24,690 bases of DNA, taken from positions 1-24,690 of the IMG/VR virus record IMGVR_UViG_3300031857_001307, one strand, 5' to 3'. A model generated the notes under the pieces. It was not told the DNA's origin. It saw only the letters and a program-made list of their open reading frames with translations, and did not search any database. Origin of the DNA: a virus. The translations under genes were made by a program, and so were the position numbers. Below, piece after piece: positions 3,980 through 21,285 of this stretch. Within the stretch, counting starts at the first letter, position 1; every line of letters starts with the position of its first letter.

Positions 3980-3985
3980 ACAATA

Positions 3986-3993
3986 ATATTTAT
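3986..3993 (+). promoter_or_regulatory. ATATTTAT motif, candidate late promoter element
   Basis: ATATTTAT in the context TAATATTTATTAG, in the 18-nt gap between the sigma gene and the 121-aa gene. It ends only 4 nt before the ATG. If it acts as a -10 element, the transcript would be nearly leaderless. Confidence 0.45.
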
Positions 3994-3997
3994 TAGT

Positions 3998-4363
3998 ATG
4001 CCAAGACCACAAAGAAAAGAAATAGATTTTACAAAAGAGTCCATATTATCTCTTATGCAAGAGATATATAATGAACTAGTTGAGCAAAGACAAACGGCAA
4101 TTAGAATTCAAAATAAAATGCTTTCTATGCTCAAGGACCCAGATGATATGAAAACTATCGGTCCTGTTATTGAAAAACAACAAAAAATCGTCAACGACTG
4201 TGTTGACAAAAAATTGGGATTATCCAAATTGCAATCTAGTATTTGGGAGAAATCAAATAACACCCAAGAAACTTTTTCTATGGCTGATTTAGATGATGAT
4301 TTAATTCAAAATCTAATAAATAAAGATGTGAATAACACAGAAGAAGTTTATAAAATGAAATAA
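3998..4363 (+). CDS. hypothetical helical protein, 121 aa
   Basis: Not recognised. The N-terminus is basic (PRPQRKEIDF), followed by two long predicted helices rich in Gln, Lys and Glu (about residues 12-90) that could form a coiled coil. The tail is acidic (MADLDDDLIQNLINKD). There are no membrane segments. It is the first gene after the sigma factor, preceded by the repeated ATATTTAT motif, and it ends one base before the start of the 706-aa virion protein. That position suggests a late, assembly-related role (chaperone, minor tail protein or late-transcription partner). These are inferences from position only. Confidence 0.72.
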   Translation: MPRPQRKEIDFTKESILSLMQEIYNELVEQRQTAIRIQNKMLSMLKDPDDMKTIGPVIEKQQKIVNDCVDKKLGLSKLQSSIWEKSNNTQETFSMADLDDDLIQNLINKDVNNTEEVYKMK

Positions 4364-4364
4364 A

Positions 4365-6485
4365 ATGCAATCAATAGATATTTCCCAAGCTTCCAAATCT
4401 ATTGAAGAGCAAATAAAAGCCATCAAAGATTATAACGCAACTTCTGCTGCGGCAAAAGAAGCGCAAAGAACTGAAGGAAATTCTTTAAGTCAATCTGTTG
4501 ATAATCTATCCCAACAATTAAACAAAATAACTCAGGATGTAAAAAGATATCAAAGAGATAATCTTTCATCCATGGACAACCTGTTAAATTATTTGGGATT
4601 AACAAGTGGGACTGGACCACAAACCCTACAATATCTCCGAAAAAAAATTATTGAGACCGCAACAAAAATAGAACCTGAAATTCAAAATATTTTGGCAAAA
4701 CAGACTATTAGAATTTTGGGGTGCTCTCAAGAACAAACTTTTGACGGATTTGCTTTATCCGCTGAAGATTTACAAATAATGCCGTTGCCCCAGCGTCCGG
4801 TGTCTGAAGGTATATACATTCCTATTGAGTCATTAGATTTTTTTGGAAATCTTAAACAAACTTTGGATTCTAATTATGGAAAGTTTTTTTATGAAAAGGA
4901 AACACCGGCTGCTGATAGTAATTTTGTCCCTTATGGTGGTAGATTAAAATTCCCCATGAATAAAACGTTAAACGTTTTGATGACGGAGAATAATGCTGGT
5001 AGGTCATATGCTGAAATTTTTGGTCGCAATTACCAGGGTGAATCAACGCAACCATTATTTGACATACAATACACGGATACAAATGGAGTTACACAGGGAA
5101 ATTATTTCCGAGTGGCTTTGATTGATAGGGAGCAACAAAATGGAACAAAGTTAAATACAATCGCAAATTATGTTAGGGATTATTATTCCACGATAAAATT
5201 GGTGGATCCGGTTTTAATTGGCGCTCAGGTCGCGAATTTGCTTACGGGAGCTATTAGTATGCAAGCCCAAAGAAGCACTGCGGAGATTACCAATCAAACG
5301 GCTTTTGGGTTAATAGTTCAAAGGATATTGGGTTTATGTTTTGATAGTCGTGCTGAAATTGATGTAAGCGGCATTTCCAAAATTGCGGAGTTGGATGGTG
5401 TTGATGATTCTTTTTTTGAATTTACGGATATTGATTTAAGAAAGATTGATATTGCGATTGCTAATATCCAGCAGGGTATTGCGCAATTTGAGGATTGTGG
5501 TAATGTAAAATTGCCAGTCAATTCAAAAGTTGTTATTGATGAATTGATTACGTTTAGGGATAAATTAACTGGAAATACTGATAGTGAAAACGTCCAAGGT
5601 GTTCAAGATGTAATTGACGCTGTGTTAAACAACGACATTTGGCGTAAGGAAATTACGGATGGACTTGGTTTGGATGTGTCGGTTAATAAAAATGTAATTA
5701 AGCAGATGCCGATTGCTGTTGCTTCGGCTATATTGACGCCAAAGGTTTTATTGCCGATTTATGCTTTGCTGGCGGTAGTTCAAAATCAAGCAAGTTTGAA
5801 CTATAATAATACCGTCAATAATGTTAATAACCAAACGGCAAACGCAAATGCTTTTACAAATTCAGCGGGCAATCTTTCCGGTCAGGCGGTAAATGTTGTA
5901 AATGATGGGGTTGATTTCTTGAAACAATTTAGGTCGTTTAGTATTGAGGTGATTTCAGAAATAAATTCTATTTTCTTGAAAACGCTTTTTGATTTATTGA
6001 AGCGTGATATTATTAGATTGATGACCACGGTTATTGGTGATGTTAATAAATCCACGAGATTAAAAAATCAAAAAATTATAACCAGATTGGTTCAAGTTGC
6101 CGCTATTGTCGCGCAATCTTTGGTGCTTTTGGATGATGCCAGAAAATGTAAAAGTTTGTTGAGTAGCATTCAAAACTTATTGAATTTAATTAACGGAGGA
6201 AGTAGTTTGGCGGCTCAAGTTAGAATACCCGAACCTTTATTGTTTTTGGCAGAGTTCTTGCCAGGGTATTCGCCAGAAAGGGCAACAATCAATATTATAA
6301 AAACCATGCAGTCATTCGGATTGGAAACCGGCCCTCTACCCGGAGGTTCGCCAAACCTTATGGCATTATATACCTACGCCGTAACAAAAGGTATGGATGA
6401 AGAAGAAACCGCAAATGGTAAAATCCAAGCGGTGGGACTTACTCCTCCCGTCGTAGGTGGATTAGTTAAAGTGACTGGAAAATGA
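4365..6485 (+). CDS. probable virion structural protein, 706 aa
   Basis: No family recognised. The N-terminal ~80 residues are helical and Gln/Asn-rich (SKSIEEQIKAIKDYN, NLSQQLNKITQDVKRYQRDN). A middle part of mixed composition carries aromatic and Gly-Asn turns typical of virion proteins (ENNAGRSYAEIFGRNYQGES). A hydrophobic stretch at about residues 449-472 (PIAVASAILTPKVLLPIYAL) is followed by an Asn-rich linker. The C-terminus is Gly/Pro-rich. It is next to the baseplate hub-like gene and coupled to the 68-aa gene by an ATGA overlap, so a baseplate or tail role is the best guess. The hydrophobic helix could be membrane-active or simply buried; a tape measure is less likely given the modest length. 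Confidence 0.75.
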   Translation: MQSIDISQASKSIEEQIKAIKDYNATSAAAKEAQRTEGNSLSQSVDNLSQQLNKITQDVKRYQRDNLSSMDNLLNYLGLTSGTGPQTLQYLRKKIIETATKIEPEIQNILAKQTIRILGCSQEQTFDGFALSAEDLQIMPLPQRPVSEGIYIPIESLDFFGNLKQTLDSNYGKFFYEKETPAADSNFVPYGGRLKFPMNKTLNVLMTENNAGRSYAEIFGRNYQGESTQPLFDIQYTDTNGVTQGNYFRVALIDREQQNGTKLNTIANYVRDYYSTIKLVDPVLIGAQVANLLTGAISMQAQRSTAEITNQTAFGLIVQRILGLCFDSRAEIDVSGISKIAELDGVDDSFFEFTDIDLRKIDIAIANIQQGIAQFEDCGNVKLPVNSKVVIDELITFRDKLTGNTDSENVQGVQDVIDAVLNNDIWRKEITDGLGLDVSVNKNVIKQMPIAVASAILTPKVLLPIYALLAVVQNQASLNYNNTVNNVNNQTANANAFTNSAGNLSGQAVNVVNDGVDFLKQFRSFSIEVISEINSIFLKTLFDLLKRDIIRLMTTVIGDVNKSTRLKNQKIITRLVQVAAIVAQSLVLLDDARKCKSLLSSIQNLLNLINGGSSLAAQVRIPEPLLFLAEFLPGYSPERATINIIKTMQSFGLETGPLPGGSPNLMALYTYAVTKGMDEEETANGKIQAVGLTPPVVGGLVKVTGK

Positions 6486-6688
6486 CAAAACAAGATATTG
6501 AAATAATTCTGGAAGAAGTAAAAGATTTGGTAAATCTGCCAAATAATAAATTAATAAGTTTGATGGATAAACTTTCAACCGAATTTGATGAAACAAAAAA
6601 TTCAATAATTGATTTGAGTTATCATTTAGATAATGTGGAAGCTTTGTATAATAAAATATTGAACGAATACGAAAAAAGGAGTAAATGA
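6482..6688 (+). CDS. small coiled-coil protein, 68 aa
   Basis: Short, highly charged and almost wholly helical by composition (IEIILEEVKDLVNLPNN, VEALYNKILNEYEKRSK), with heptad-like spacing of Leu and Ile. It overlaps the gene before and the gene after by 4 nt (ATGA at both ends), which argues strongly for it being translated. No known family is recognised. A chaperone or small structural partner of the flanking virion proteins is possible. Confidence 0.72.
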   Translation: MTKQDIEIILEEVKDLVNLPNNKLISLMDKLSTEFDETKNSIIDLSYHLDNVEALYNKILNEYEKRSK

Positions 6689-8478: not shown

Positions 8479-8485
8479 TATTTAT
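8478..8485 (+). promoter_or_regulatory. ATATTTAT motif, candidate late promoter element
   Basis: ATATTTAT in the context TTGATATTTATTATT, overlapping the stop codon of the hub gene. It ends 14 nt before the ATG of the 500-aa virion gene. Confidence 0.45.
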
Positions 8486-8499
8486 TATTAAAAAATGAC

Positions 8500-10002
8500 A
8501 TGTCCATTTTAAGATCGTATTTTAATAAAAATAACACAATCATATCAAATACGGACATCAACACGGGAAGAAACCCCGTGCTTGAGCTAAATTTTGGCAG
8601 TTCCGATTTTATTGTGCCGAATTATGGTTATACAAGATTTATATTTGATATTGATTTATCCTTACTTCTGGAAAGCATAGACACCGGTGTTATATCAACA
8701 GGTTGCACAACAGGAATGACCCACACATTAAAGATGACAAACACATCATCTTTTGATAATGAATTGCTTAACACCTTCATGACAAATTCAAGAAGAAGGG
8801 CAACATCATTTGATTTAATTCTTTTCCGCATCCCGCAAACATCTGGCAACACCGGAAACATTCAAGAATGGGATGAAGGTGTTGGATTTGACTTTAATGA
8901 CTTCAATCTAACAAAGAACAGCGCATACGGGGGAATATCCCCATATACTTACGTTGATAGCAGGGCGTTCTCAACACGCCCATCAAACTGGTATAAAACA
9001 ACCACCGTATCTGATTGGTCTGAGCCCGGAATATATAACAACAAAAACGAAGGGTTGGTTAATTATTCTGGTTTAACAATCGTGGCGACGCAACACTTTG
9101 AATTGGGAAATGAAGACCTAGATATGGATATGACAAATGAGATTAATTCCATTATAAATGGAACATTAACTGGCGTCACAGGTTGGGGTCTTGCTTATGT
9201 CCCAGAAATTGAAAACATATCAGGTTTAACTGATAGTTATAGCGTTGCTTTCTTCACACGACATACGCAAACATTCTACGAACCATTCCTACAAACAACC
9301 TACGACGACCTAATCCAAGATGATAGAAACCAGTTCTTGAAAAACCAAGAAAACAAACTTTATCTATACATATATCAGAATGGGGACTTCGTTAATCTGG
9401 ACAATCCCCCAACCGTTCAAATCCAAGATAGAAATGGAACAATAGTTCCGGGAATGACCGCTTTAACCACATGTTTAAAAACAAAAGGTGTTTATGAGGT
9501 TGTGGTTCCAAATGGTTTCACCGGCTCACCAACCCCATGCACATTCTACGATATATGGGAAAACTTATATATTAACGGACAAAGCGTTCCAAATGTTGAA
9601 AACCAATTTATCCTCCAGCAATTAAGCGCCGGCATACAGATTGGTTCAACATCACAAGAACCACAAAAGTTTGGTTTTGACTTCTATGGAATAAAACAAA
9701 ATGAAAAAATTCTTAACACCGACATAAGGAAGGTTGGGGTTACAATTAAAAAAGCATATACAGCACAAAATATGCTCCTGGATGTATCTGGATTTTATAG
9801 AGTTTATGTGAAAGAAGGAACAACAGAAGTTCTGGTTCAAGATTGGACGCCGCTCAACCGAACACCAAATCAATATTATTTCATATTTGATATGAGAGAT
9901 AAGGTGCCAAATCAATATTATGTTGATATGCAAGTGAATACTTCAGGAGAGAAAGATACTTATAAAAGAGAATTAACCTTTGAAATCGTAAATACAAAAT
10001 GA
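8500..10002 (+). CDS. virion structural protein, DNRLRE-like N-terminal part
   Basis: A 500-aa protein. The N-terminal ~230 residues follow the layout of DNRLRE-type surface/structural domains. They have a strand-rich opening (YTRFIFDIDLSLL), a paired strand (ATSFDLILFRIP), an aromatic acidic turn (IQEWDEGVGFDF), a Trp-rich SNWYKTTTVSDWSEPG and a later helix (DLDMDMTNEINSII). The C-terminal ~200 residues contain what look like Ig-like or beta-sandwich modules (NPPTVQIQDRNGTIVPG, DVSGFYRVYVKEGTTEVLVQ). Such proteins are found on tail or baseplate surfaces of marine T4-like phages. The start is taken at 8500; an ATG at 8495 is in another frame. It overlaps the 151-aa gene by 4 nt (ATGA). The domain call is from pattern memory. 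Confidence 0.6.
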   Translation: MSILRSYFNKNNTIISNTDINTGRNPVLELNFGSSDFIVPNYGYTRFIFDIDLSLLLESIDTGVISTGCTTGMTHTLKMTNTSSFDNELLNTFMTNSRRRATSFDLILFRIPQTSGNTGNIQEWDEGVGFDFNDFNLTKNSAYGGISPYTYVDSRAFSTRPSNWYKTTTVSDWSEPGIYNNKNEGLVNYSGLTIVATQHFELGNEDLDMDMTNEINSIINGTLTGVTGWGLAYVPEIENISGLTDSYSVAFFTRHTQTFYEPFLQTTYDDLIQDDRNQFLKNQENKLYLYIYQNGDFVNLDNPPTVQIQDRNGTIVPGMTALTTCLKTKGVYEVVVPNGFTGSPTPCTFYDIWENLYINGQSVPNVENQFILQQLSAGIQIGSTSQEPQKFGFDFYGIKQNEKILNTDIRKVGVTIKKAYTAQNMLLDVSGFYRVYVKEGTTEVLVQDWTPLNRTPNQYYFIFDMRDKVPNQYYVDMQVNTSGEKDTYKRELTFEIVNTK

Positions 10003-10487: not shown

Positions 10488-10495
10488 ATATTTAT
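10488..10495 (+). promoter_or_regulatory. ATATTTAT motif, candidate late promoter element
   Basis: ATATTTAT within TAATATATTTATATTAT in the 46-nt gap before the HNH endonuclease gene. It ends 5 nt before the ATG. Confidence 0.4.
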
Positions 10496-10500
10496 ATTAT

Positions 10501-11409
10501 ATGGATACACTAAAAAAATGTAATTTTTGTGGTGAGGAAAAAGCACTCACTGAATTTTATGCGTCACATAAGGGCGCAAAATGTAAAACGTGTTTTTTAC
10601 AGTCCGGTAGGATTTATAAAAAAAACAGAAGGTCTTCAGAAGAATTTAATAGTAGGGAAAAATTAAAATACCAAGAACGAAAAATAAGGTTGTGGGCTAA
10701 TGTTCTATTAAATTATACAAAAGGAAGGAAAATTGAGAATAATTTAGAAGTGGTGGATATTTTAAATTTGTATGAAAAACAAAACGGTCTGTGTTATTGG
10801 TATAAAATTCCTTTGAAGCCGTCACTAACTAATAAACATCCGCAACAACCATCTATTGATAGATTAGATAGAAATAAGGGGTACGTTAAAGATAATATTG
10901 TATTATCCTGTTATGCTGCTAATATTGGTAGAAATGAATCTGATTTAGAGACTTGGAATGATTTTATTGAATTGCTAAACAACAATCATAAAAATCACAT
11001 AGGTAAAAATGATGAATACGAAAAATTAAAAATAAAATTAGACCAGTCAGACGATAGAGACGAGTATGTGGTATATGATGAAACACTAAACTCATACACA
11101 ACAAAAAATATTAACGAATTTTTTAGACAAAACGATTTGGGCGTCAAAAATGTGAATGCTATACGAAAAAAGAGTAAAAGAAATATTCAAAAGGGAGTTA
11201 TAGTATTAAATAGGACTAAGGGTGAAACAATCCAAAAAAGAGTTTATCATTTAATATCGCCAGAAAATGTCAAATATAAATTATTTTCTCTGCGCTCATT
11301 TTGTAAACAAAATAATCTAAATGATAGTGCTTTACAAAGATTAGCAAAAAAAGAAATAAATTATTATAAAGGTTGGCAGTGCGAATACGAAACGATTACG
11401 TTAAAATAA
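10501..11409 (+). CDS. free-standing HNH homing endonuclease
   Basis: A 302-aa protein. An N-terminal zinc-ribbon-like module has Cys7-x2-Cys10 and Cys28-x2-Cys31. An HNH-type nuclease core lies at about residues 92-145: NGLCYWYKIPL, then PSIDRLDRNKGYVKDNIVL with the conserved Asp120-Arg and Asn132, then AANIGRN with the final Asn141. The C-terminus (LRSFCKQNNLNDSALQRL, ending KGWQCEYE) resembles the NUMOD-type DNA-binding repeats of homing endonucleases. Such enzymes cut an allele lacking the element and spread by repair. No intron or split gene is visible on either side. It sits at the plus/minus junction, with its stop one base from the stop of the convergent 215-aa gene, and no terminator lies between them. 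Confidence 0.82.
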   Translation: MDTLKKCNFCGEEKALTEFYASHKGAKCKTCFLQSGRIYKKNRRSSEEFNSREKLKYQERKIRLWANVLLNYTKGRKIENNLEVVDILNLYEKQNGLCYWYKIPLKPSLTNKHPQQPSIDRLDRNKGYVKDNIVLSCYAANIGRNESDLETWNDFIELLNNNHKNHIGKNDEYEKLKIKLDQSDDRDEYVVYDETLNSYTTKNINEFFRQNDLGVKNVNAIRKKSKRNIQKGVIVLNRTKGETIQKRVYHLISPENVKYKLFSLRSFCKQNNLNDSALQRLAKKEINYYKGWQCEYETITLK

Positions 11410-11410
11410 T

Positions 11411-12058
11411 TCATTTCTTTGGTTTATAACTAACCATCGTTGGCGCATTTCCCTTTCCAGATTTTGGATTTTGTTTTTCCGCCCTTCTTTTTTGAGCACA
11501 AGCCGCTTTCTTTTGAGCATCTGACATTTTACCCGCAACACCAGCAGCACGACATTTTGGATATGATTTAGAATCCGCATCCGATCTTCCACACGGAGGA
11601 TGCTTACCATTCTTATCCCTACTACAAATATTAACCCACGGACCCTTCGGTTGCTTACTCCCTTTTGGTTTTTTCTTGGTGCCAAACCAAACCGCCAAAT
11701 CTTCCTTCAATAACTCCTCCTTTAATGGTAATCCATTCATAGTTGGGTTAATCGCAGATCCCTCCTCATCATTCTGCCCTTGATACTTTTTTTTCAGATT
11801 TTTAACAATTTTTGACATCTTACGAGTTTTTGTCTCAATACTTTTTCTTTTTGCCGGAGTTTCATTAAAATCACCATCCGCTTCCTCATACGCCAACTCC
11901 GCATTCGTATATTGATACACGGGCTCAATAAATGGCTCCAGTTGATCTTTCTCCCAAGATTGGGGTGCTAATACTATTGGCACCTTATAATTCCCTGAGA
12001 CGGCAGCAGAAGTGGCTTCTTTAAGAATCTTTTTTATTGTTGCTTTGATATTATCCAT
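11411..12058 (-). CDS. 215-aa basic protein with LKE-type N-terminal leader
   Basis: I place the start at 12058 (MDNIKATIKKILKEATSA). A longer frame runs to 12133, but it would overlap the divergent gene and include the ATATTTAT motif at 12077, which lies 18 nt upstream of the chosen ATG. The leader ends in Leu12-Lys13-Glu14 before Ala, a good prohead-protease site. The middle is charged. The last ~80 residues are basic and Cys-bearing (GPWVNICSRDKNGKHPPCGR, then YPKCRAAGVAGKMSDAQKKA), resembling a short domain of unknown function seen in phage and giant-virus proteins. The basic tail would suit DNA binding inside the head. Function is unknown. Confidence 0.68.
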   Translation of the reverse strand: MDNIKATIKKILKEATSAAVSGNYKVPIVLAPQSWEKDQLEPFIEPVYQYTNAELAYEEADGDFNETPAKRKSIETKTRKMSKIVKNLKKKYQGQNDEEGSAINPTMNGLPLKEELLKEDLAVWFGTKKKPKGSKQPKGPWVNICSRDKNGKHPPCGRSDADSKSYPKCRAAGVAGKMSDAQKKAACAQKRRAEKQNPKSGKGNAPTMVSYKPKK

Positions 12059-12076
12059 AAAAGAATTATTATTAAT

Positions 12077-12084
12077 ATAAATAT
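12077..12084 (-). promoter_or_regulatory. ATATTTAT motif (minus strand), candidate late promoter element
   Basis: Reads AGATATTTATATTAA on the minus strand, ending 18 nt before the ATG at 12058. On the plus strand the same bases read TATAAATA (12076-12083), the T4 late-promoter core, 9 nt before the plus-strand ATG at 12093, so the site may serve both divergent genes. Confidence 0.45.
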
Positions 12085-12092: not shown

Positions 12093-12326
12093 ATGGAACA
12101 GAAAGAACCAATCGGCGCTTTATTTGATAGCATATTATATTACACACCAGACGACTTAAATAATCTTATAGATGGTTTAACGCGAGAACAATCTTTTTAC
12201 GTTTTATCCCAGTGCGTTGAGTACGCACATAAGTCTGGATTATTATCGCTAAGTGAGTCTGAATTAGCATCAAAAGCTCTTAGGGTTATGAATCAAAAAA
12301 TTGTATCGCAAGATATTATTGGTTAA
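12093..12326 (+). CDS. hypothetical protein, 77 aa
   Basis: Small, acidic and helical by composition (TPDDLNNLIDGLTREQSFYV, then SLSESELASKALRVMNQK). No family is recognised. It is a lone plus-strand gene inside the minus-strand block, divergent from the 215-aa gene. It is followed 5 bases after its stop by a bidirectional hairpin terminator, so it looks like a complete one-gene transcription unit. That layout, with the T4-like TATAAATA 9 nt before its ATG, is the main support. Confidence 0.65.
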   Translation: MEQKEPIGALFDSILYYTPDDLNNLIDGLTREQSFYVLSQCVEYAHKSGLLSLSESELASKALRVMNQKIVSQDIIG

Positions 12327-12331: not shown

Positions 12332-12355
12332 AAAAGGGCGCTGATGCGCCCTTTT
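12332..12355. terminator. bidirectional rho-independent terminator
   Basis: A perfect 10-bp stem (AAAAGGGCGC / GCGCCCTTTT) with a TGAT loop lies between the convergent stops of the 77-aa gene (+) and the 384-aa gene (-). A/T runs on both sides make it usable in both directions. Confidence 0.88.
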
Positions 12356-12356: not shown

Positions 12357-13511
12357 TTATTTATTTGTAGCAACTGCTTTATTTGTCTCAGTCTGCCCAG
12401 TAGCTGCTGGATCAGGTTGAGAAAAGAAATCCTCAATCTTAATAATCTTACCGCAGTTATCCATAGTGGCAACTTTCCTAACATCACCCTTAGCCATTCT
12501 ATCTGCGCGATTTTTAGCTGTCCCCATGTAACTAGGACCACTTATCTTTTTACCGTCATCAAACACAGACATTACAAGTGGGGCTTCATGACATTTTTCT
12601 GACATACACTTAAATGCAACCTCAACCGTTTCTGATGTTCCTAGTATTTGTTTTGCTTTTTCAGGGCTAACAGTCAAAGTTTGTTTTCTTGCCCCAGCAC
12701 TAGGATAATTATTTAAACTAAAAATATCTGTTCCAGTTTCATTACATGTAATTGGAACGTTATTTAATAATAACGTAAATTGCGCATCATTACAATTATG
12801 ATATTTGTCATTATCAGAACCTACTGGTATATATTTAACTTCAATATTTAAGTTGAAGTCACATTCAAATCTTGTTAACCCTTTAACCTCAATTGTTGCC
12901 GACACAAATTGTTCCGCAATAGCTTCTGGACTATTCCTTACCGTCGCAGAACCAATTACAGGTTGCGCTATTTGTATTTCTGGCAATTGTTTAACCAAAC
13001 CGTCAGAAACTACTGATTGAAGTTGTTGTGTCAAAAGTTCTTGTATTGTAGCGCTTCTTTTTTTCGCCAATTCACCCGGATTTAATCTTGGGCTACCTGG
13101 AGCTTCGTTATCTTTGTTGGGGACCGCAGACTCACCCGAAGCAATAGTTATTCGGGTAATTTGTGGTATGAAAAATTTATTCAAAAAATCTCTAACTTCT
13201 TGAACCGCATTTGTAACCTGTGTCACAATAGTTGTGCTGCCGTCAGCACTGTTAGCTTTATTACTCCAGAATCCACTTGCAAAGTTGAATTGTATTGTCA
13301 TCTTATCAGTAGCTTGAATTGGGTCGCCCTTTTCATCAGTCATCAATCCATATTTTTTAGCAAATTCCCTCGGTGTTAAAGTTTTCTCAACTTCTGGTTG
13401 TTGGGTAACTTGTTGTTCTAGAAATAAATATTGTTTTTTTGATGCCGATTCATGTAGATTTATAATCCTACGTCTTTCTTCATCATCAATATTCCAATTT
13501 TGTTTTATCAT
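12357..13511 (-). CDS. 384-aa probable virion-associated protein, possible OmpA-like middle domain
   Basis: No certain family. The N-terminus (IDDEERRRIINLHESASKK) is a charged helix with a Leu19-His20-Glu21 site before Ser, fitting prohead-protease cleavage. Residues ~65-170 have a layout reminiscent of OmpA C-terminal domains: a strand (MTIQFNFASGFW), a helix (TNAVQEVRDFLNKF), a strand (ITRITIASGESA), then LNPGELAKKRSATIQELL, which recalls the 'N-x-LSxxRA' helix. The C-terminal half contains two close Cys pairs (FKCMSEKCHE and others) and a Thr/Ala-rich tail. It forms its own transcription unit, with a terminator before and after and the ATATTTAT motif 18 nt upstream of the ATG. The OmpA comparison is weak and by eye. 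Confidence 0.7.
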   Translation of the reverse strand: MIKQNWNIDDEERRRIINLHESASKKQYLFLEQQVTQQPEVEKTLTPREFAKKYGLMTDEKGDPIQATDKMTIQFNFASGFWSNKANSADGSTTIVTQVTNAVQEVRDFLNKFFIPQITRITIASGESAVPNKDNEAPGSPRLNPGELAKKRSATIQELLTQQLQSVVSDGLVKQLPEIQIAQPVIGSATVRNSPEAIAEQFVSATIEVKGLTRFECDFNLNIEVKYIPVGSDNDKYHNCNDAQFTLLLNNVPITCNETGTDIFSLNNYPSAGARKQTLTVSPEKAKQILGTSETVEVAFKCMSEKCHEAPLVMSVFDDGKKISGPSYMGTAKNRADRMAKGDVRKVATMDNCGKIIKIEDFFSQPDPAATGQTETNKAVATNK

Positions 13512-13529
13512 GATCTTTATCTTTTTTAT

Positions 13530-13537
13530 ATAAATAT
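13530..13537 (-). promoter_or_regulatory. ATATTTAT motif (minus strand), candidate late promoter element
   Basis: Reads CTAATATTTATATAAA on the minus strand, ending 18 nt before the ATG of the 384-aa gene. It lies just downstream of the capsid-gene terminator, so a new transcript can start here. Confidence 0.5.
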
Positions 13538-13554: not shown

Positions 13555-13578
13555 AAAGGGAGACAATTGTCTCCCTTT
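13555..13578 (-). terminator. rho-independent terminator after the major capsid gene
   Basis: A perfect 10-bp stem (AAAGGGAGAC / GTCTCCCTTT) with an AATT loop is followed on the minus strand by a run of about nine T (13549-13557). It lies 20 nt past the capsid stop codon and ends the minus-strand scaffold-capsid transcript. Confidence 0.93.
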
Positions 13579-13598: not shown

Positions 13599-15404
13599 TT
13601 ATCTCAATTCTTGTAAGTCAAATGTTCTAACTCCATCAACTGTAATTCTACCATAGAACCTGTTGTTTACCATCTTCTTAGCATATCTTGTCATGATACC
13701 TTTGATTGGTGTAAAGTTGAATGGGTTATACATAGTTGGTGTAAGTTGTAATGGAACATACGGTGCGTAGATATAACCTGTGTCAAGCAAAGAAGTTCCT
13801 TTATGACCCAACAACACTTGGTTAGCTGGGAAGTAAGGGTCTCTATAAACCTGATATCTACCTGCTAATGTTCCAACTCTTTCAATACCCATGTTATATT
13901 GATCCTGCTCAGGGGCAGCATTTGAAACGTGGAAGTATTCAAGGTCGTCAAAAATTGCACTAATTTCAGAAGAAACTACAATCCAGTTAGCACCACCTCT
14001 AAGAGTTGATTTGTGGATTTGAGCTGAAATTTGGTTAATTGCTGTAATCAACGTTTGGTTCCAGTCTTTCTGAGTATAAGGAACAGCGTTTGATCCTAAT
14101 CTCTTCCAACCATTATAATCCCATCTCAAGTTCCAAGCAGCACCTTTTCTAAGGTCTCTCAAAATTTCTCTATCGATTTCCGCAGCAACTTGTTCAGACA
14201 ACAACGCAGTCAATTCAGCTTCTGCATCTATGTTATGGAATGCTGCAACGTCCTGCGCCATTTCTGGTGACCACTGAGCTCTTAACTTTCTTTCAGTTAC
14301 AGAAACTGTTACTGACATAAGATCAAACGAAACTTCACCTATCTTATCTTCAAATTCCAATTCTTTGTAAATTCTGTATGTTGCAGTAAATGCAGCATCA
14401 GCTAAGGTAGTCGATGTAAATGTTGATCCAGAATAACCATCAAGTGAATTGGCTCCAACAGTTGCCGGAACTTGTAAGTCAATTTCCAAATAAATTTGTC
14501 CATTTACGTCACAAATGTTATCATATTGACCACCACCAGTTTTAGAGTCTGGGAATACTAATGTATCGTTGTTGTTACCATACTGTACAATACCTTTTCC
14601 ATATCTTTGAGTTACAACTCTAAACAAATAAGGATTATTTACATTTGCTGATGTGTATATGTTTCCGGCAACACCGTAAATTGTCAAATCAGAAAGAAAT
14701 GATTCGTTATCAATTGGGTTACCATCAGGTCCAATTAACTTACCAGCACCAGCGTTAGCAAATCCTGACATGATTACTAATACTTTTCTAAATACTGAAT
14801 CAGGGTTACCAGTTGTTGCGCTATAACCGTAAGGTGCCAAATTTAACGTGGTATTATTCCATGCTGCCGTTGTAACAGTTGCTGTGATAGCAGAATATTG
14901 ACCTTTTGAGTAATCAAACAATCCAGGAGGATCCAAAGCTGGCTCATTACCTTCATAAAATCTATCATAAAGGTCTCTACCATTATTATAGTTATAACCC
15001 TCATTTGGCGATGCCGGGCCACCTGGCGCACCATAAGGTGGATAATGCTCAGATGTACCTGGTTGATATGCTTGAATATTTGGTACAAAGTAGAACAATT
15101 TACCAATTGGTAAGTTCATAGCTTGAACCGATACGATGTCATTAGCCAAAAGTTTAGAGAATACTCTTCTTACTATTGGAAATACAACAGTTTCGAATGA
15201 TCCTGTGTCTGATGTAGTTGCAGCTTCGTTAATCAAGTACGAAGCTTGGTTTTCATACAACTGGGCAACGTTTTCTCTCATGTGACCTTTAAGTCCTTCA
15301 AGAAATCCTAATTTATCCCACTTGCCAATTGTGTCTTCTTTGATAACTTTCAAGTGCTTAAGACCGATGTTACCAACAAGACCTGATTCTAATAATGCTC
15401 CCAT
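13599..15404 (-). CDS. 23: major capsid protein, T4 gp23-like
   Basis: A 601-aa protein, longer than T4 gp23 (521 aa), with extra loops in the middle. Recognisable gp23 blocks are VVFPIVRRVFSKLLANDIVS near residue 72, then RAQWSPEMAQDVAAFHNIDA and AEAELTALLSEQVAAEIDRE, and a C-terminal MTRYAKKMVNNRFYG. The N-terminal ~60 residues look like the propeptide: YLINE before Ala-Ala gives an Ile-x-Glu site after Glu60, near the T4 cleavage position (Glu65). It forms the hexamers of the head shell. The start follows an A-rich leader without a Shine-Dalgarno sequence, 32 nt after the scaffold stop, and a strong terminator follows the gene. Confidence 0.96.
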   Translation of the reverse strand: MGALLESGLVGNIGLKHLKVIKEDTIGKWDKLGFLEGLKGHMRENVAQLYENQASYLINEAATTSDTGSFETVVFPIVRRVFSKLLANDIVSVQAMNLPIGKLFYFVPNIQAYQPGTSEHYPPYGAPGGPASPNEGYNYNNGRDLYDRFYEGNEPALDPPGLFDYSKGQYSAITATVTTAAWNNTTLNLAPYGYSATTGNPDSVFRKVLVIMSGFANAGAGKLIGPDGNPIDNESFLSDLTIYGVAGNIYTSANVNNPYLFRVVTQRYGKGIVQYGNNNDTLVFPDSKTGGGQYDNICDVNGQIYLEIDLQVPATVGANSLDGYSGSTFTSTTLADAAFTATYRIYKELEFEDKIGEVSFDLMSVTVSVTERKLRAQWSPEMAQDVAAFHNIDAEAELTALLSEQVAAEIDREILRDLRKGAAWNLRWDYNGWKRLGSNAVPYTQKDWNQTLITAINQISAQIHKSTLRGGANWIVVSSEISAIFDDLEYFHVSNAAPEQDQYNMGIERVGTLAGRYQVYRDPYFPANQVLLGHKGTSLLDTGYIYAPYVPLQLTPTMYNPFNFTPIKGIMTRYAKKMVNNRFYGRITVDGVRTFDLQELR

Positions 15405-15436
15405 TTTTTTCTTGTTTTTTTTGTTTTTATTTTTTT

Positions 15437-16849
15437 TTATGCTATCTTTGACATAAGATCTTTCATCCTCATAAATTGAGGGTTTTCATATGTCTTTGAT
15501 TCAATTAAAGATGCTGAAGAACCAGTAGATACTGTTTTAATTAATTTCTTCTCAACATTCTCATTAATTGATTGTGCATTAGGGTTAGAAAGTTCATCTT
15601 TGATCGCTCTATATAAATTTTTTGATTCCTTCAAGCTATCAACATTATCGAACCTTCTCAAAATGTTTATTTTTTCTTTTTTTGTCGTGGAATGCTCAGT
15701 AAATAATCTAGTGGCATAAGCAAGATTAGAATTGAATACAGCAACTTCATTTAGTTTTTCTCTGAAAACATTTAGTGCTTTTCTGTATTCTTCATTCTTA
15801 CTTCTTAATACATTTACTTCGCTATCTAAGGATTCGAAAGTCATATTTCTATTTGGTGTTATACCTTTTCTTAACCCTCTACCTTCTTTTGATCCCATCC
15901 CATATGTGCGTGATGCTTCTTTTGTTTCTTTCTTCACAATTTTTGGTTTACCATCTGTATTCTCTCCTTTTGGAAAAACACTTTTTTTAACACTACCGGT
16001 TCCAACTGCTTTAACCTTACCCTTGAAAGCTTCTGGTTTTTTCTCGTCAAATCCACCAGTTTGTTTTTTGTAAGAGAATTTTTTAGCTGAACCCATACCA
16101 ACTCCTTTTGGTTTGATTGTAGATTTTTTTGGACTGTATGACTCATCAAGTTCGAATTCTTCTTCATCCTCCTCTTCTTCGTCATCCATTTCAATTTCAT
16201 ACATAACTTCTTCATCTTCAGAATCGAGGTCAATTTCGGATGATCCTTTGTCAGAAAAAATAGCGTCAATAATATCATCAATAGACTCATCTTCTTCGTC
16301 CATTTCTTCTTCGTATTCTTCATCCATTTCTTCTTCGTATTCTTCGTCCATTTCTTCTTCGTATTCTTCGTCCATTTCTTCTTCGTATTCTTCGTCCATT
16401 TCTTCTTCTGTTGATTCGCCAAGTTTTAATAAATACTCAACGTCAGCATCTGTGTCAGATAAGTGAATATCTTCACCATCCTTTTTAACTATAATGCCAT
16501 CATCTTCTCCCATGGATTTGAACACTCTAAGAATTTCTTCGTCAGAAGCGTCAGTAAGATCAATTGGTTCGTCAGTATCTACTGAATCGAAGTCCATTTC
16601 TACATTATCTACATCCATATCCATGTCTTCATCGTCCATATTCATGTCCTCATCATCCATATCAACTTCAGTATCTACATCAAATCCCATCTCTTCTTCA
16701 TCCTGTTCGGTAAGGGATTCTTTTACTAATTGTGAGATTTCTTCCTTCATAGTAGAACGAAGTATTCCTTTTGCATTTTCGGCAATTGCTTGTTCAACAT
16801 TTCGCATTTGAATAAGTGCCTCTTCGACTAAGTTTTTGTTGTCTTGCAT
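15437..16849 (-). CDS. 22: prohead core scaffold protein, T4 gp22-like
   Basis: A 470-aa protein, much longer than T4 gp22 (269 aa). The C-terminal ~120 residues carry the conserved part: FREKLNEVAVFNSNLAYATR, then LFTEHSTTKKEKINILRRFD. The N-terminal half is a very acidic extension, including MDDEDMNMDDEDMDMDVD and five tandem copies of an 8-residue EEEMDEEY unit (residues 148-187). Many LxE sites suit destruction by the prohead protease during maturation. A central Lys-rich segment with repeated GMGS/GTGS motifs follows. It forms the internal core around which the capsid assembles. It has its own start region: two ATATTTAT motifs and a terminator lie just upstream. Confidence 0.88.
   Translation of the reverse strand: MQDNKNLVEEALIQMRNVEQAIAENAKGILRSTMKEEISQLVKESLTEQDEEEMGFDVDTEVDMDDEDMNMDDEDMDMDVDNVEMDFDSVDTDEPIDLTDASDEEILRVFKSMGEDDGIIVKKDGEDIHLSDTDADVEYLLKLGESTEEEMDEEYEEEMDEEYEEEMDEEYEEEMDEEYEEEMDEEDESIDDIIDAIFSDKGSSEIDLDSEDEEVMYEIEMDDEEEEDEEEFELDESYSPKKSTIKPKGVGMGSAKKFSYKKQTGGFDEKKPEAFKGKVKAVGTGSVKKSVFPKGENTDGKPKIVKKETKEASRTYGMGSKEGRGLRKGITPNRNMTFESLDSEVNVLRSKNEEYRKALNVFREKLNEVAVFNSNLAYATRLFTEHSTTKKEKINILRRFDNVDSLKESKNLYRAIKDELSNPNAQSINENVEKKLIKTVSTGSSASLIESKTYENPQFMRMKDLMSKIA
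16289..16408 (-). repeat. five tandem 24-bp units in the scaffold gene
   Basis: Five in-frame 24-nt units encode EEEMDEEY four times and then a final copy ending in Asp. Copies are nearly identical at DNA level, which points to recent slippage or recombination and predicts length variation between related phages. Confidence 0.9.
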
Positions 16850-16870
16850 TAAAATTATTTATTTTAACTA

Positions 16871-16878
16871 ATAAATAT
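16871..16878 (-). promoter_or_regulatory. ATATTTAT motif (minus strand), proximal to scaffold gene
   Basis: Reads ATAATATTTATTAGTT on the minus strand, ending 21 nt before the scaffold ATG. Confidence 0.48.
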
Positions 16879-16936
16879 TATGAAAATGAAAAAAAATCGC
16901 ATTTTATATAAATGCAACAATTTTTCTAATTCATTT

Positions 16937-16944
16937 ATAAATAT
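16937..16944 (-). promoter_or_regulatory. ATATTTAT motif (minus strand), distal to scaffold gene
   Basis: Reads CAGATATTTATAAATG on the minus strand, 87 nt before the scaffold ATG and directly after the 16957-16982 terminator. It is a second copy upstream of the same gene. Confidence 0.45.
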
Positions 16945-16956: not shown

Positions 16957-16982
16957 AAAAGGGGTTGAAATCAACCCCTTTT
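16957..16982 (-). terminator. rho-independent terminator between the DUF4494-like gene and the scaffold gene
   Basis: A 12-bp stem (AAAAGGGGTTGA / TCAACCCCTTTT) with a 2-nt loop is followed on the minus strand by a T run (16952-16960). It overlaps the stop codon of the 69-aa gene by two bases. It separates the portal-protease unit from the scaffold-capsid unit. Confidence 0.9.
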
Positions 16983-17196: not shown

Positions 17197-17913
17197 TTAT
17201 TTTCCCAAAAAGTCGTTTAATTTTTTCATTAAATCAATAGAGCTACTAAAATCAGTGCTTGTGTTTTTGTATTTTTTTTCTTCTTCCAGGTTTTCATCAT
17301 ACTTTTGTCTGTCTTCTGGATTGCTAAATAGGTAAGCTCCGGGAGTTGATGGTGATGAAACCAAGTCAAAACATATAAGTTCAAAATCATCTTGAACTTC
17401 ATTTCTTTCTCCGACTTTCTTTAAGGAACCGACACCTCTTGATGATACACCCATGGTTACACCTTGTCTCATTAGGTTTGCTGCGACATCTCCCTTTGAG
17501 GATACAATTCCGCGCTCATGGAAGCCGGGTGAAGTAAGCAATTTTAATTTACCCATGAGAACATTACCATCCCACCAAATATCGGTTATGATATGGGATA
17601 CTCTATCCAAATCAATTAAGGAGGACTCTGGGTGGTTAAGTTCAGATGTTGATAATCCTTTCTTGATTAGGTTTTTATAGTTTTCCGCTTCTCTTTTTAA
17701 TATTTTTTCAGGATAGAATCTACCATTCCTATTGGGCGTGTTATATTTTTGGAGAACCGCATAAAATTCAAATGGATTTCTATAATCATGATTTGCGGCT
17801 TCTTTCAATACTTTGGCATTTGGTTCATAACTTGGAGAAATATATCCAGCATCCATTTCAACTAAAATGCCGTGTCCTTGTTCATTTGCTTCTAATATAC
17901 GTAAATTTTTCAT
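17197..17913 (-). CDS. 21: prohead core protease, T4 gp21-like
   Basis: A 238-aa serine protease of the herpesvirus-assemblin-like prohead protease group (family S78/U9 type). Probable catalytic residues are His94 in STSELNHPESS, Ser157 or Ser158 in GVTMGVSSRGVGS, and Asp183 in CFDLVSSPSTPGAY. It cleaves head proteins at (L/I)xE sites during prohead maturation. It carries such a site near its own N-terminus (VLKE before Ala-Ala, residues 35-38), consistent with self-cleavage as in T4. The length is close to T4 gp21 (212 aa). The ATATTTAT motif lies 14 nt before the ATG. It is followed closely by the DUF4494-like gene. Confidence 0.93.
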   Translation of the reverse strand: MKNLRILEANEQGHGILVEMDAGYISPSYEPNAKVLKEAANHDYRNPFEFYAVLQKYNTPNRNGRFYPEKILKREAENYKNLIKKGLSTSELNHPESSLIDLDRVSHIITDIWWDGNVLMGKLKLLTSPGFHERGIVSSKGDVAANLMRQGVTMGVSSRGVGSLKKVGERNEVQDDFELICFDLVSSPSTPGAYLFSNPEDRQKYDENLEEEKKYKNTSTDFSSSIDLMKKLNDFLGK

Positions 17914-17927
17914 TTAATCTTTTTAAG

Positions 17928-17935
17928 ATAAATAT
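17928..17935 (-). promoter_or_regulatory. ATATTTAT motif (minus strand), candidate late promoter element
   Basis: Reads CTAATATATTTATCTT on the minus strand, in the 29-nt gap before the protease gene. It ends 14 nt before the ATG. Confidence 0.5.
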
Positions 17936-17942: not shown

Positions 17943-18389
17943 TCAAACTTTATCAATTAATTCTTTTTTAGTTGCTGAAAAATCAAAATATTTGTTTTGA
18001 ATAATATTGTATTTGTAGATGTTTTTAATGATTTTTTTAATTGCTTCTCGTATTTCGTGAGATTTGAATTCTATTGGATTGTTTGTGTATAATGTGACTT
18101 CTAAATTAAAAAAGGACCGCTTGCCCATCATAATTCCGCTCGATCTTAAATCCAAATCCACAATTATCCCCTTCATAAAAATTTCTTGATCCAAACTTTC
18201 ATTTATAATTAAAATCATGTCTCTTCTCAAACTACTCACAACTCGGCTCCAATTTTCATATTCTTTTTTTGGGCTCACCCACGATTGTATGTTCAAAAAC
18301 AAGGACTTAAAATTTTTGGCATCTACCGTCCCATATGATGTCTTGATTGAACTATACAAATTTAACTTTACACTTTTTCCCTTCTTCAT
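17943..18389 (-). CDS. hypothetical protein, 148 aa, in the gp68 position
   Basis: Not recognised by sequence. It has a basic N-terminus (KKGKSVKLNLYSSIKT), an alternating beta/alpha middle (IIVDLDLRSSGIMMGKRSFF) and a Lys/Ile-rich C-terminal helix (IREAIKKIIKNIYKYNII). No membrane segment or Cys cluster is visible. It lies between the portal and protease genes, where T4 has the small prohead core proteins gp67 and gp68 (gp68 is 141 aa). A core-protein role is possible on position and size alone. It is divergent from bS21 across a 97-nt gap that lacks the ATATTTAT motif. Confidence 0.72.
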   Translation of the reverse strand: MKKGKSVKLNLYSSIKTSYGTVDAKNFKSLFLNIQSWVSPKKEYENWSRVVSSLRRDMILIINESLDQEIFMKGIIVDLDLRSSGIMMGKRSFFNLEVTLYTNNPIEFKSHEIREAIKKIIKNIYKYNIIQNKYFDFSATKKELIDKV

Positions 18390-18486
18390 TAACTTTTTAT
18401 AACAAAATGTTTATTTTTTGTAAAAATATATATAAAAAAAAATGAATAGTCAAAGTATTTCTATAACAAAACAAATATTGTAAAGT

Positions 18487-18675
18487 ATGCTAATAGTTGA
18501 AATTAAAAATGGTGAAAGTTTGGAGCGAGCCCTTAAAACGCTCAAATCCAAAGTTATTAAAACAAAACAAAATAAAATCCTCTTTCAGAAGAAACATTAC
18601 GAAAAAAAATCAGTAGAAAGAAGAAATCAAATACAAAAAGCCATTTACACACAAAAAGTTAAAAACTCACAGTGA
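18487..18675 (+). CDS. rpsU: ribosomal protein bS21 homolog
   Basis: A 62-aa protein with the bS21 layout: a short strand (LIVEIKNGESLERALKTLKS) in which the 'E-x-x-x-x-ALKR-K' pattern is clear, a basic helix (KTKQNKILFQKKHYEKKSVE), then ERRNQIQKAIYTQK, close to the 'KPSVxRRxxxxxAxY' of Bacteroidota bS21. It is highly basic and of full family length. bS21 sits on the 30S platform near the anti-Shine-Dalgarno end of 16S rRNA and affects initiation. Phage-encoded bS21 proteins are known from metagenomic phages and may replace the host copy. The gene is on the opposite strand to its neighbours, converging with the 231-aa gene with a 9-nt overlap of the two ends. Confidence 0.87.
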   Translation: MLIVEIKNGESLERALKTLKSKVIKTKQNKILFQKKHYEKKSVERRNQIQKAIYTQKVKNSQ

Positions 18676-19362
18676 TTCAACCAGGTTCTTAATTTTAACA
18701 AGATTAAGGTGATCAAATGTTGAGTTTTCGATTTTTGTTATTGTTTCGGTAATTTTTTCTTTTGTCTGTATGTCAGATTCATTTTTCAAAATCTTATTTA
18801 ATTTTGAAAGGGCTTCTTCTTTCTTTTCAACAAATACGGTTTCCAAAACATCTGTGTTCTCTGAAATTAAATTCAAAAATTCTTTTTTGGAGTTTTCGTC
18901 CAAATTACCAACATATTGATTTAACGTTGAGTTGGCAATTTTAACCATTGTTTCTATTGGTAGTGCTACACTAGTTGATGATTTTTTATTTTCAGACATC
19001 AAAGTTTTAATTAAACTTTTTTTGGCTTCAACTCGTTCTTTAATATTAATGGATGAAGAATATACCAAAGCGTCAATATTTTTGTATTGGTTAGATACAA
19101 CACCATTTGTTTTTGGTAATTTAATTCCGGAGACAACCTCCTGAATCAAACTAATCCCTTCATTTAAATAATCCTTTGCTTCTTCCTCAGTCAAATTTTG
19201 CGGAGTGCTTAATTGGTCGTAGAGAGCGTATAATTTTGATAATGGTTTATCATTCAATACATAATACTTAAACTCTCTCAATAATTTTTTGAATTCTTTC
19301 TCATTATTATAAGATTGAACCAAATTGTTTTCTATAATTGATTTTATCTGTCCAAAAGTCAT
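18667..19362 (-). CDS. hypothetical head-region protein, 231 aa
   Basis: The family is not certain. It is nearly all helical and highly charged (SYNNEKEFKKLLREFKYYVL near the N-terminus, NIKERVEAKKSLIKTLMSEN in the middle, KKEEALSKLNKILKNES later), with coiled-coil character and no Cys. It directly follows the portal gene on the minus strand, with the ATATTTAT motif 16 nt before its ATG. In position it stands where T4 has prohead core genes 67/68. A core or portal-assembly role is inferred from position. Its 3' end overlaps the convergent bS21 gene by 9 nt. Confidence 0.75.
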   Translation of the reverse strand: MTFGQIKSIIENNLVQSYNNEKEFKKLLREFKYYVLNDKPLSKLYALYDQLSTPQNLTEEEAKDYLNEGISLIQEVVSGIKLPKTNGVVSNQYKNIDALVYSSSINIKERVEAKKSLIKTLMSENKKSSTSVALPIETMVKIANSTLNQYVGNLDENSKKEFLNLISENTDVLETVFVEKKEEALSKLNKILKNESDIQTKEKITETITKIENSTFDHLNLVKIKNLVESL

Positions 19363-19378
19363 TTTTTATATTTTACAT

Positions 19379-19386
19379 ATAAATAT
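19379..19386 (-). promoter_or_regulatory. ATATTTAT motif (minus strand), candidate late promoter element
   Basis: Reads GTAATATTTATATGTA on the minus strand; its first base is shared with the TAA stop codon of the portal gene. It ends 16 nt before the ATG of the 231-aa gene. Confidence 0.5.
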
Positions 19387-21248
19387 TACGAATTTAATAA
19401 CTTATCAAGTTCTTTTTCAATTTCAGACAAAGAATGTTGTCCGGAGTTCAAATCAATTATATTTTTCCCCTCAATAAAGTTGTTCTCAACAAGAATATTC
19501 ATGTCAGGAAATTTTTGTTCTGGTGCCAACTCTGGTCCTCCACCTGCTTCTGGACCGGGAGGTGGTGGTGGTGCTCCACCCAATAACTCTTCACCTCCTC
19601 CTCCTGGTGGTGGTGGAAGTGGTGCCGCACCGCCGCCAAATATTTCTTCACCACCTGGTGAAGTTTCTGCACCAGCTGCCGGTGTTGCTCCTGATGTGGA
19701 GCCGTATAACTTATCAATATTATCAAAGATTCCTGTTTTGGTTATTACTGTCGCAGTTGCTTTTAATTCTTCACCTACGGCTCGTTCAATTCTTTGTTGT
19801 TGTAAGTCTAATTTAACTTCGTCATCTGACCATCCAAAAATATGTTTCTTTGCCCAAGTTGAAGATGTTGCTTGAATTCCATTACCCGGATCCATCACAA
19901 GTTCTTTATATAGCGCAACTTTTTCTTTCCAAACATCAATCATTAATAAATCAGCTTGTTTGGATGGATTTGTTAATCCTAATGTAAAGTTTGCCAATTC
20001 ATCTTCAAATCCCAACAAAAACAAATGTATGATTGCTATTTTATTCATTTCAGCGATCATGCTTTTTTGGATTCTGTTAATTGTTCTGGCAAATCGTATA
20101 TCTTGTAATGATAAATTTTTTCCATCACCCACAACTTCCTCAAATCCCAAAAATGCTTTTGGAACTCTCAAAGCTGTTAATAATTTTTTCTGAATATATT
20201 CAATATCCGCAATCTCGGACAAGTTTGTCGCACCTGGCAAAGTTGTTATTGGATCCGGAGCAGCTGGGTCACGAACAGGAATAAAATAATCCTGATCCAC
20301 GGCCATCTGGTTAAATCTCATATCAACATTTCCGCTTTTACTATCAACAATTTGTTCTCGTTTAAACTTGTTGGCAACACGCTGAACGTATGCTTCAACA
20401 TCATCATCATTCATATTACCCACAAATACCTTAAACATTCTTCGTTCTGGAGCCCTTGATGTCCTATAAATCAACATGGCATCCTCAGACAACAATAATT
20501 GTTTCCAAATTCTTCTCGCTTTTTCAAGCATAGAAGTTCCATAAGGTAATTTTCTATCATCACCCAATAAACGGAAATGCGCGATCTCCCAAGATTGGAA
20601 CTCCATATTTTTGTTTTTCCAAGTGAAGTGTAACGCTTTTTTATCCTTATCTAGTTCTTTTGTAATGTCAATTGATATTTTACCTTCAGTTCCAATTTCA
20701 TGTCGCTCAATCTCTATCGTTGGTAATTGCTGACAACCCACAATTCCTTTCTCTGGATCCAATTTCAAATAAACAAAGTTGTCCCCATACTTACAAGTGT
20801 TTCTTGTCCACATGGGTAGGTTTGTGTTAATATCTAACGTATTATTAAATAAATCGGCAAGAACTGCTTTTATCCTTTTTGACTCAGAATATATTTGTAA
20901 AATGAACCCATCCTCATTTGGTGTTGTTGATTCTTCGGAATAGATGTCTAATGCCGCCGATATTTCGGGCGTATACTCCATCGATTCGTAATCATATTGA
21001 GCCGACAATCTGTTCGGTTCATAATAGATTGCTTGGGAATAAAGGTTGTTTTCAACCTTTTGCCAGTTAGATGTTAAATAGAAAGTTTGTTGAGCTTGGA
21101 GCTTTTCTCTTTCGTATTCTTGCTTATCTTGAGTTCGGAGTAATTCCTTTTTGTCAAACTTAAATGTTGGATAGTCCTGATTTAATAATGAATTAGGACC
21201 TAGTGTTTTGGATAATCTTTGCCAAACCGTTAAATTATTTTCTGCCAT
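19386..21248 (-). CDS. 20: portal vertex protein, T4 gp20-like
   Basis: A 620-aa protein against 524 in T4. Portal blocks are YESMEYTPEISAALDIYSEE near residue 85, NTCKYGDNFVYLKLDPEKG near 150, and a stem/wing region with RTSRAPERRMFKVFVGNMND. The extra length is mostly a C-terminal Gly/Pro-rich tail (about residues 520-571, with PPPPGGGGEE and GGAPPPPPGPE), then a helical end (SEIEKELDKLLNS). The dodecameric portal forms the DNA entry channel, nucleates head assembly and docks the terminase. The low-complexity tail probably faces inside or is disordered. It follows the terminase gene directly, with no sheath or tube genes between. A GTATTTAT motif lies 29 nt before the ATG. Confidence 0.94.
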   Translation of the reverse strand: MAENNLTVWQRLSKTLGPNSLLNQDYPTFKFDKKELLRTQDKQEYEREKLQAQQTFYLTSNWQKVENNLYSQAIYYEPNRLSAQYDYESMEYTPEISAALDIYSEESTTPNEDGFILQIYSESKRIKAVLADLFNNTLDINTNLPMWTRNTCKYGDNFVYLKLDPEKGIVGCQQLPTIEIERHEIGTEGKISIDITKELDKDKKALHFTWKNKNMEFQSWEIAHFRLLGDDRKLPYGTSMLEKARRIWKQLLLSEDAMLIYRTSRAPERRMFKVFVGNMNDDDVEAYVQRVANKFKREQIVDSKSGNVDMRFNQMAVDQDYFIPVRDPAAPDPITTLPGATNLSEIADIEYIQKKLLTALRVPKAFLGFEEVVGDGKNLSLQDIRFARTINRIQKSMIAEMNKIAIIHLFLLGFEDELANFTLGLTNPSKQADLLMIDVWKEKVALYKELVMDPGNGIQATSSTWAKKHIFGWSDDEVKLDLQQQRIERAVGEELKATATVITKTGIFDNIDKLYGSTSGATPAAGAETSPGGEEIFGGGAAPLPPPPGGGGEELLGGAPPPPPGPEAGGGPELAPEQKFPDMNILVENNFIEGKNIIDLNSGQHSLSEIEKELDKLLNS

Positions 21249-21277
21249 GGTATAATCTTACTTAAATGTTTGATAAT

Positions 21278-21285
21278 ATAAATAC
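21278..21285 (-). promoter_or_regulatory. GTATTTAT variant of the repeated motif (minus strand)
   Basis: Reads AAGTATTTATATTATC on the minus strand, starting at the base after the terminase stop codon. It ends 29 nt before the portal ATG. It has one mismatch to ATATTTAT. Confidence 0.4.

Follow-up and report, generated by a model that had tools for sequence, protein, structure and literature searches.

The late promoters of phage T4 carry an 8-bp A/T box, TATAAATA, at -10 and are served by gp55, gp33 and gp45. They have no -35 element, are A/T-rich downstream, are used on both strands and stand upstream of head and tail genes in a genome that encodes a gp55-family sigma (PMC2988020). In the T4 structure, gp55 flips A-12, A-9 and A-8 into pockets (PMC7892883). 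Clade-specific variants of the box are known from cyanophages (NATAAATA), KVP40, 44RR and Aeh1, and these retain the central AAA (PMC2984593, PMC2988020). The Bacteroidota housekeeping promoter is of the TTTG/TAnnTTTG type; in F. johnsoniae the polymerase starts 4-5 nt after TAnnTTTG, and leaders are longer than 10 nt in 87% of predicted transcripts (PMC6847099). In TA-led leaderless genes, the first T of a -10-like signal lies ~10-12 bp before the start codon (Zheng et al. 2011, PMC3160421).

The window analysed here is a stretch of 24,690 nt (IMG/VR fragment, IMGVR_UViG_3300031857_001307 positions 1-24,690) with T4-like genes, namely a gp23-type capsid protein, a gp20-type portal, a gp21-type protease and a large terminase. 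It shares with T4 the 8-bp A/T box at -10, the lack of a -35 element, the A/T-rich downstream sequence, the use of both strands, the position upstream of head and tail genes and an encoded gp55-family sigma. The clade to which it belongs has TT in place of AA at -10 and -9, so that the centre kept by the cyanophage, KVP40, 44RR and Aeh1 variants is altered, and it has a shorter gap to the ATG, with many genes predicted to be leaderless. Its sigma has an extra C-terminal part compared with T4 gp55, and gp33 and gp45 were undetected. The motif is very probably a late-type promoter of large T4-like phages, which probably infect Bacteroidota, and would be read by the phages' own gp55-like sigma. 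No earlier description of it was found in the open-licence literature. The features of the window are as follows.

3233-3979, plus strand: putative gp55-like late sigma factor of 248 aa, with a sigma region-2-like part and an extra helical C-terminal part.
3987-3994, plus strand: core TATTTATT before gene 3998-4363, with the ATG 3 nt past the 8-mer, predicted leaderless; in 64/64 orthologous upstreams, all at -11.
8479-8486, plus strand: core (site 8478) before gene 8500-10002; in 64/64 orthologous upstreams.
10489-10496, plus strand: core before HNH-like endonuclease gene 10501-11409, predicted leaderless; in 11/11 orthologous upstreams at -11.
12076-12083, minus strand: core before gene 11411-12058 (start MDNIKAT); in 87% of 53 orthologous upstreams.
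13529-13536, minus strand: core (site 13530) before gene 12357-13511, directly after a terminator; in 30/30 orthologous upstreams.
13555-13578, minus strand: terminator hairpin and U-tract directly upstream of the 13530 core.
13599-15404, minus strand: major capsid protein gene (gp23 family; phrog_138, E=1e-64); core in 0/58 orthologous upstreams.
16870-16877, minus strand: core before acidic scaffold/core-like gene 15437-16849; in 42/42 orthologous upstreams.
16936-16943, minus strand: second, distal tandem core (site 16937), also before 15437-16849; two sites in only 12/45 relatives.
16957-16982, minus strand: terminator hairpin and U-tract directly upstream of the 16937 core.
17927-17934, minus strand: core before prohead protease gene 17197-17913 (phrog_207); in 37/37 orthologous upstreams.
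19378-19385, minus strand: core (site 19379) before gene 18667-19362; in 30/30 orthologous upstreams.
21277-21284, minus strand: core in the GTATTTATA form before portal gene 19386-21248 (phrog_213); in 26/26 orthologous upstreams.

A first-pass annotation of this DNA had reported ten gene-oriented sites, and all ten were found at its coordinates and on its strands; the core-to-ATG spacings it had given (4, 14, 5, 18, 18, 21, 87, 14, 16 and 29 nt) are each correct. ATATTTAT occurs 10 times in the window compared to 4.5 ± 1.9 times in dinucleotide shuffles, and 0 of 100 shuffles reached 10. Within 90 nt upstream of genes, [AG]TATTTAT (ATATTTAT/GTATTTAT copies) was observed 9 times in sense and once in antisense, in keeping with the reported orientation, and 2000 shuffles gave 0.72 on average and never more than 4 for the same count, so that the motif is in excess over this background. 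The two copies noted inside coding sequence also exist, at 13424-13431 and 16429-16436. Most sites lie in gaps, as had been said of all of them, but 8478 and 19379 share a base with the gene before them, the last of its stop codon, and are thus not strictly intergenic. The proposed extension to TA(A/G)ATATTTATA did not hold up: only 2 sites are within one mismatch of TAAATATTTATA, and several of the upstream TA, TAA or TGA letters belong to the stop codon of the gene in front, which accounts for part of the extension. The terminator-like hairpins adjoining the 16937 and 13530 cores on their upstream side were confirmed. An Rfam search gave no match, and sigma70-like promoters were rejected as an explanation since the scan result was at chance level.

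The core before 11411-12058 sits in a divergent gap shared with the plus-strand gene 12093-12326, and firing in both directions may be possible there. This small ORF has ATAAATA in sense within 60 nt in all 70 distinct relatives, the ATAAATA being the reverse of the core that faces 11411-12058. A perfect bidirectional terminator hairpin (AAAAGGGCGC...GCGCCCTTTT) lies at 12332-12355, with convergent genes on either side.

A close capsid relative is encoded on at least 600 contig stretches, and the contigs recovered measure up to 321 kb. Almost the whole length of two relatives (309 and 317 kb) was analysed, with gene starts in relatives taken from a simple first-ATG ORF caller. When 8-mers were ranked by upstream strand asymmetry with the motif not supplied, ATATTTAT and TATTTATA came first in both whole relatives and were at the top in the virion region of the distant relative Flavobacterium phage vB_FspM_immuto (MW353175), so that motif discovery recovers the core unprompted. 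In the two whole relatives the core was found at 4.0-5.5/kb in sense and 0.3-0.4/kb in antisense in tandem gaps, at 2.6-4.0/kb on both strands in divergent gaps, at 0-1.0/kb in convergent gaps and at 0.05-0.16/kb inside genes. This spread over gap types is that of promoters. Position matrices of 81 and 87 sites (~170 in total) show only "not T" as conserved before the core, and no upstream signal of a -35 partner was seen in them. The functional core is [A/G/C]TATTTAT[A/T], with the 8-mer TATTTATA as its best form.

In immuto, the core stands on 15/55 virion-region genes compared to 7/94 replication-region genes (P=0.0016). The jumbo relatives also have it in front of homing endonucleases, a methyltransferase-like gene and many small uncharacterized genes; the regulon therefore extends beyond structural genes, and we infer late timing from the virion gene content and the sigma. 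A PHROG-based functional split of one whole relative was limited, most proteins being without a family. HNH/homing-endonuclease-like genes with a late-type core of their own were seen in the window (10501-11409) and in two related loci (L176:2360-3106 and L171:11145-11903), and two of the three have the core at leaderless distance.

Conservation was assessed in the upstream regions of orthologous genes from up to 160 related loci, with duplicates removed and ortholog starts snapped to the nearest in-frame ATG; the snapping also applied to the ninth motif gene, for which the start position taken was displaced by one codon. TATTTAT was present in 100% of the distinct orthologous upstreams for eight motif genes and in 87% for the ninth, compared to a shuffle expectation of 0-16%, and the bases flanking the core vary freely among orthologous gaps. 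For genes without the core in the window, only 0-5% of orthologous upstreams contain it, with the exception of the small ORF 18487 (22%). The distal tandem site 16937 is poorly conserved. The scaffold-like gene 15437-16849 precedes the major capsid gene in one run of genes, and the capsid gene is presumably transcribed from the scaffold gene's promoter. The 32-nt gap ahead of the capsid ATG (15405-15436) is almost pure A/C in the window, and the scaffold-like protein has a DEEYEEEM unit repeated in tandem (16240-16420, minus strand).

The same phage genomes contain TATCTTTG sites with TTTG ~20 nt upstream, which is the Bacteroidota housekeeping promoter type. These sites show the same leaderless and leadered gap classes as the TATTTAT core but differ from it in their upstream element and core, and presumably serve earlier genes. 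The core could itself be a variant of this host promoter, read by sigma-ABfr instead of a phage sigma, as both are A/T-rich -10/-7-type elements at similar distances to the ATG. The TATTTAT sites, however, came out negative in a sigma-ABfr test (TAnnTTTG at -7 and TTTG near -33): they have no G at the TTTG position, the T before the core that TAnnTTT requires is disfavoured (6-8%), the upstream TTTG of the TATCTTTG sites is missing, and few genes carry both types (4-6 of ~80). A host variant is accordingly considered very unlikely. Host-type sites beside partnerless TATTTAT sites point to a Bacteroidota host and to a second, phage-specific form of the polymerase; judged from these signals, the clade of large T4-like phages probably infects Bacteroidota.

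The distance between core and start codon falls into two classes. In the two whole relatives the gap from core 8-mer to ATG is 3-4 nt in 74 of 164 genes (40/81 and 34/83), which places these sites within the TA-led distance of Zheng et al. (2011), 5-11 nt in about nine genes and at least 12 nt in nearly all others. Both classes recur in the remaining loci, most of them from virion regions, where the middle range is less empty. Host-type TAHHTTTG sites fall into a 4-5 nt class and a class that begins at about 14 nt, and the gaps are bimodal in TATTTATN as in TAHHTTTG sites. As the F. johnsoniae polymerase starts 4-5 nt past TAnnTTTG, a 4-nt gap there corresponds to an mRNA beginning at the AUG, and by analogy the 3-4 nt gaps at TATTTATA would be leaderless too; T4 numbering would put the start 1-2 nt further on. 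Judged from the bimodal gaps, about 45% of the core-driven transcripts of the whole relatives probably lack a leader, and with so few gaps of 5-11 nt, leaders of about 1-8 nt seem to be avoided. The strongest leaderless candidate is gene 3998, whose gap does not vary among the 64 distinct relatives and whose ATG is real, given synonymous changes and coding constraint from codon 2 on.

The short spacings had been read in the first-pass annotation as leaderless transcripts or, alternatively, as a translation-leader element. The former is probable for the 3-4 nt subset, and the latter is disfavoured. A core acting as a ribosome-binding element with no promoter function would fit sites near start codons, often at fixed gaps (3-4 and 13-14 nt), and Bacteroidota lack Shine-Dalgarno sequences and tune initiation by A/T-rich upstream bases (PMC6847099). 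Yet the core is absent before genes within tightly packed runs, which need translation equally, its gaps span 3 to >30 nt, and its gap classes are shared by the host-type promoters of these phage genomes. In phage Mel-JY01 (PP395634), moreover, the core lies mostly at about -41 with a Shine-Dalgarno-like sequence between core and start, which makes it independent of the initiation mode. We regard a purely translational role as highly doubtful.

T4 itself was analysed with the same script as a control, and TATAAATA was found sense-upstream at -22 to -36 in its virion region. In the two whole relatives TATTTATA outnumbers TATAAATA in sense (47 and 51 versus 9 and 17), as it does in the virion regions of immuto (13 versus 3) and Mel-JY01 (7 versus 0); Rhodothermus phage RM378 (NC_004735) has TTATTTAA. 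The first-pass annotation had found it unexpected that the motif is the reverse complement of the T4 late core, but there is no anomaly: read in the same direction, the two share 6 of 8 letters and, in T4 numbering, differ at -10 and -9 only (AA to TT), with A-12 and A-8 kept. The reverse complementarity of TATTTATA and TATAAATA is a property of the word. It is also the one argument for taking the sites as genuine TATAAATA promoters of the T4 type that fire from the opposite strand, antisense into the gene upstream. Against this, the sites follow the orientation and start of the downstream gene, with sense copies in tandem gaps >10-fold over antisense, convergent gaps are nearly empty, and T4's own TATAAATA is sense-upstream; this orientation was rejected on the T4 control and the gap-type counts and is extremely improbable. 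Compositional chance in upstream gaps of ~75% A+T is the least credible explanation of all, refuted by the complete conservation of the core across dozens of orthologous gaps in which neighbouring bases vary, and contradicted by the shuffles.

The core is a real, strongly conserved element, best described as a T4-type late promoter variant whose centre is re-coded and which probably has a large leaderless class. The late-promoter reading of the first-pass annotation is backed by phylogenetic footprinting, the gap-type distribution, the lack of a -35 element, the upstream terminators and the gp55-family sigma.

That a gp55-like sigma is encoded in the window was also borne out, as remote homology consistent in both search directions. 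PHROG and Pfam searches with the ORF 3233-3979 gave no match, nor did a phmmer search of the PDB. A profile of 21 relatives, used in hmmsearch, ranked gp55 first among the T4 frames tested (E=6e-4) and also matched immuto26A_153 at 1e-13 and a Mel-JY01 protein at 9e-11. In the reverse direction, the gp55 PHROG (phrog_234) led to this very frame in immuto and three whole relatives at 6e-4 to 8e-3, a profile that also matches weakly in 7/14 control genomes. Alignment to six gp55s by hhalign gave P=5.5e-6 and a score of 43.9, the best of 30 column shuffles scoring 19.7. By these profile comparisons the sigma is a remote gp55 homologue. A fold model was weak (pLDDT 68), and sigma factors ranked high among its Foldseek matches in the PDB at E>0.1, which is not significant.

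The gp55 pocket residues L54, R57, F86 and Y97 and the clamp-helix contacts E70/D74 (gp55 residues from PMC7892883) are largely kept in the clade's sigma, and N13, H95 and T99 are not. The N13 and T99 differences are suggestive of a tie to the change at -9. The H95 change was rejected as the sole cause of the -9 switch, since cyanophages with A retained at -9 likewise have an aromatic residue at the H95 position. The clade's sigma continues into a helical C-terminal part of ~90 residues, which has no counterpart in gp55, is present where gp55 bears its clamp-binding motif and gave no match to gp33. Profiles for gp33 and gp45 (phrog_254, phrog_223, PF02916) matched in T4 only and in none of the three whole relatives or immuto, although both proteins could be hidden from profiles by high divergence. 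With gp33 and gp45 undetected, activation may not follow the T4 mechanism. The relatives do have a family-B polymerase and clamp-loader-like ATPases; immuto has a family-A polymerase instead.

In the proposed mechanism, host RNA polymerase carrying the phage gp55-like sigma (3233-3979) would open the DNA at TATTTATA, the -10 position, and transcription would begin about 4-5 nt downstream of the core. The clade would have altered -10 and -9 of T4's TATAAATA from AA to TT, and its genes would either begin where transcription does (gap 3-4 nt, leaderless) or follow a leader of at least roughly 10 nt. We infer recognition of this core by the sigma, the start position and leaderless translation. 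A wider hypothesis can be offered tentatively, although we think it unlikely as a whole: the gp55-like sigma would work independently of clamp and coactivator, with its C-terminal part in gp33's role at the polymerase flap, on the re-coded core TATTTATA, with many early and late mRNAs leaderless and leaders of ~1-8 nt selected against.

Conservation of the T4 late promoter is high among T4-related phages infecting Proteobacteria and cyanobacteria, and this clade is two bases off. With a divergent gp55 whose pocket residues can be compared to those in the T4 cryo-EM structure, the re-coding of a promoter by a phage sigma becomes testable, and evidence for leaderless mRNAs in phages of hosts without Shine-Dalgarno sequences bears on translation start in such hosts. 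The core also gives a rule for calling late transcription units in a large, mostly unannotated environmental phage family.

The named phages are distant relatives, with capsid proteins of only ~37-42% identity in the aligned part. Immuto and Mel-JY01 share the core TATTTATA and a homologous sigma with the clade; RM378 has the related core TTATTTAA, and its sigma gave no match. The capsid relatives LR756508 and LR756511 contain neither core in the 50 kb examined. In immuto (record 62000-77000), a long repeat, roughly TATATTTAGGTATCAATAATTAAAA, stands before some 15 small genes without a known function. As TAnnTTTG shows no sense excess in immuto, TATATTTAGGTATCAATAATTAAAA may be the early promoter of this phage. 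In Mel-JY01, leaders are longer and Shine-Dalgarno-like. The recorded host of Mel-JY01 is Microcystis, and the phage groups with Bacteroidota phages by its late core, its sigma and a handful of TTG-N-TAnnTTTG sites (6 sense, 0 antisense). Given these Bacteroidota-like signals and the Shine-Dalgarno-like leaders against the Microcystis record, the host assignment of Mel-JY01 is worth checking.
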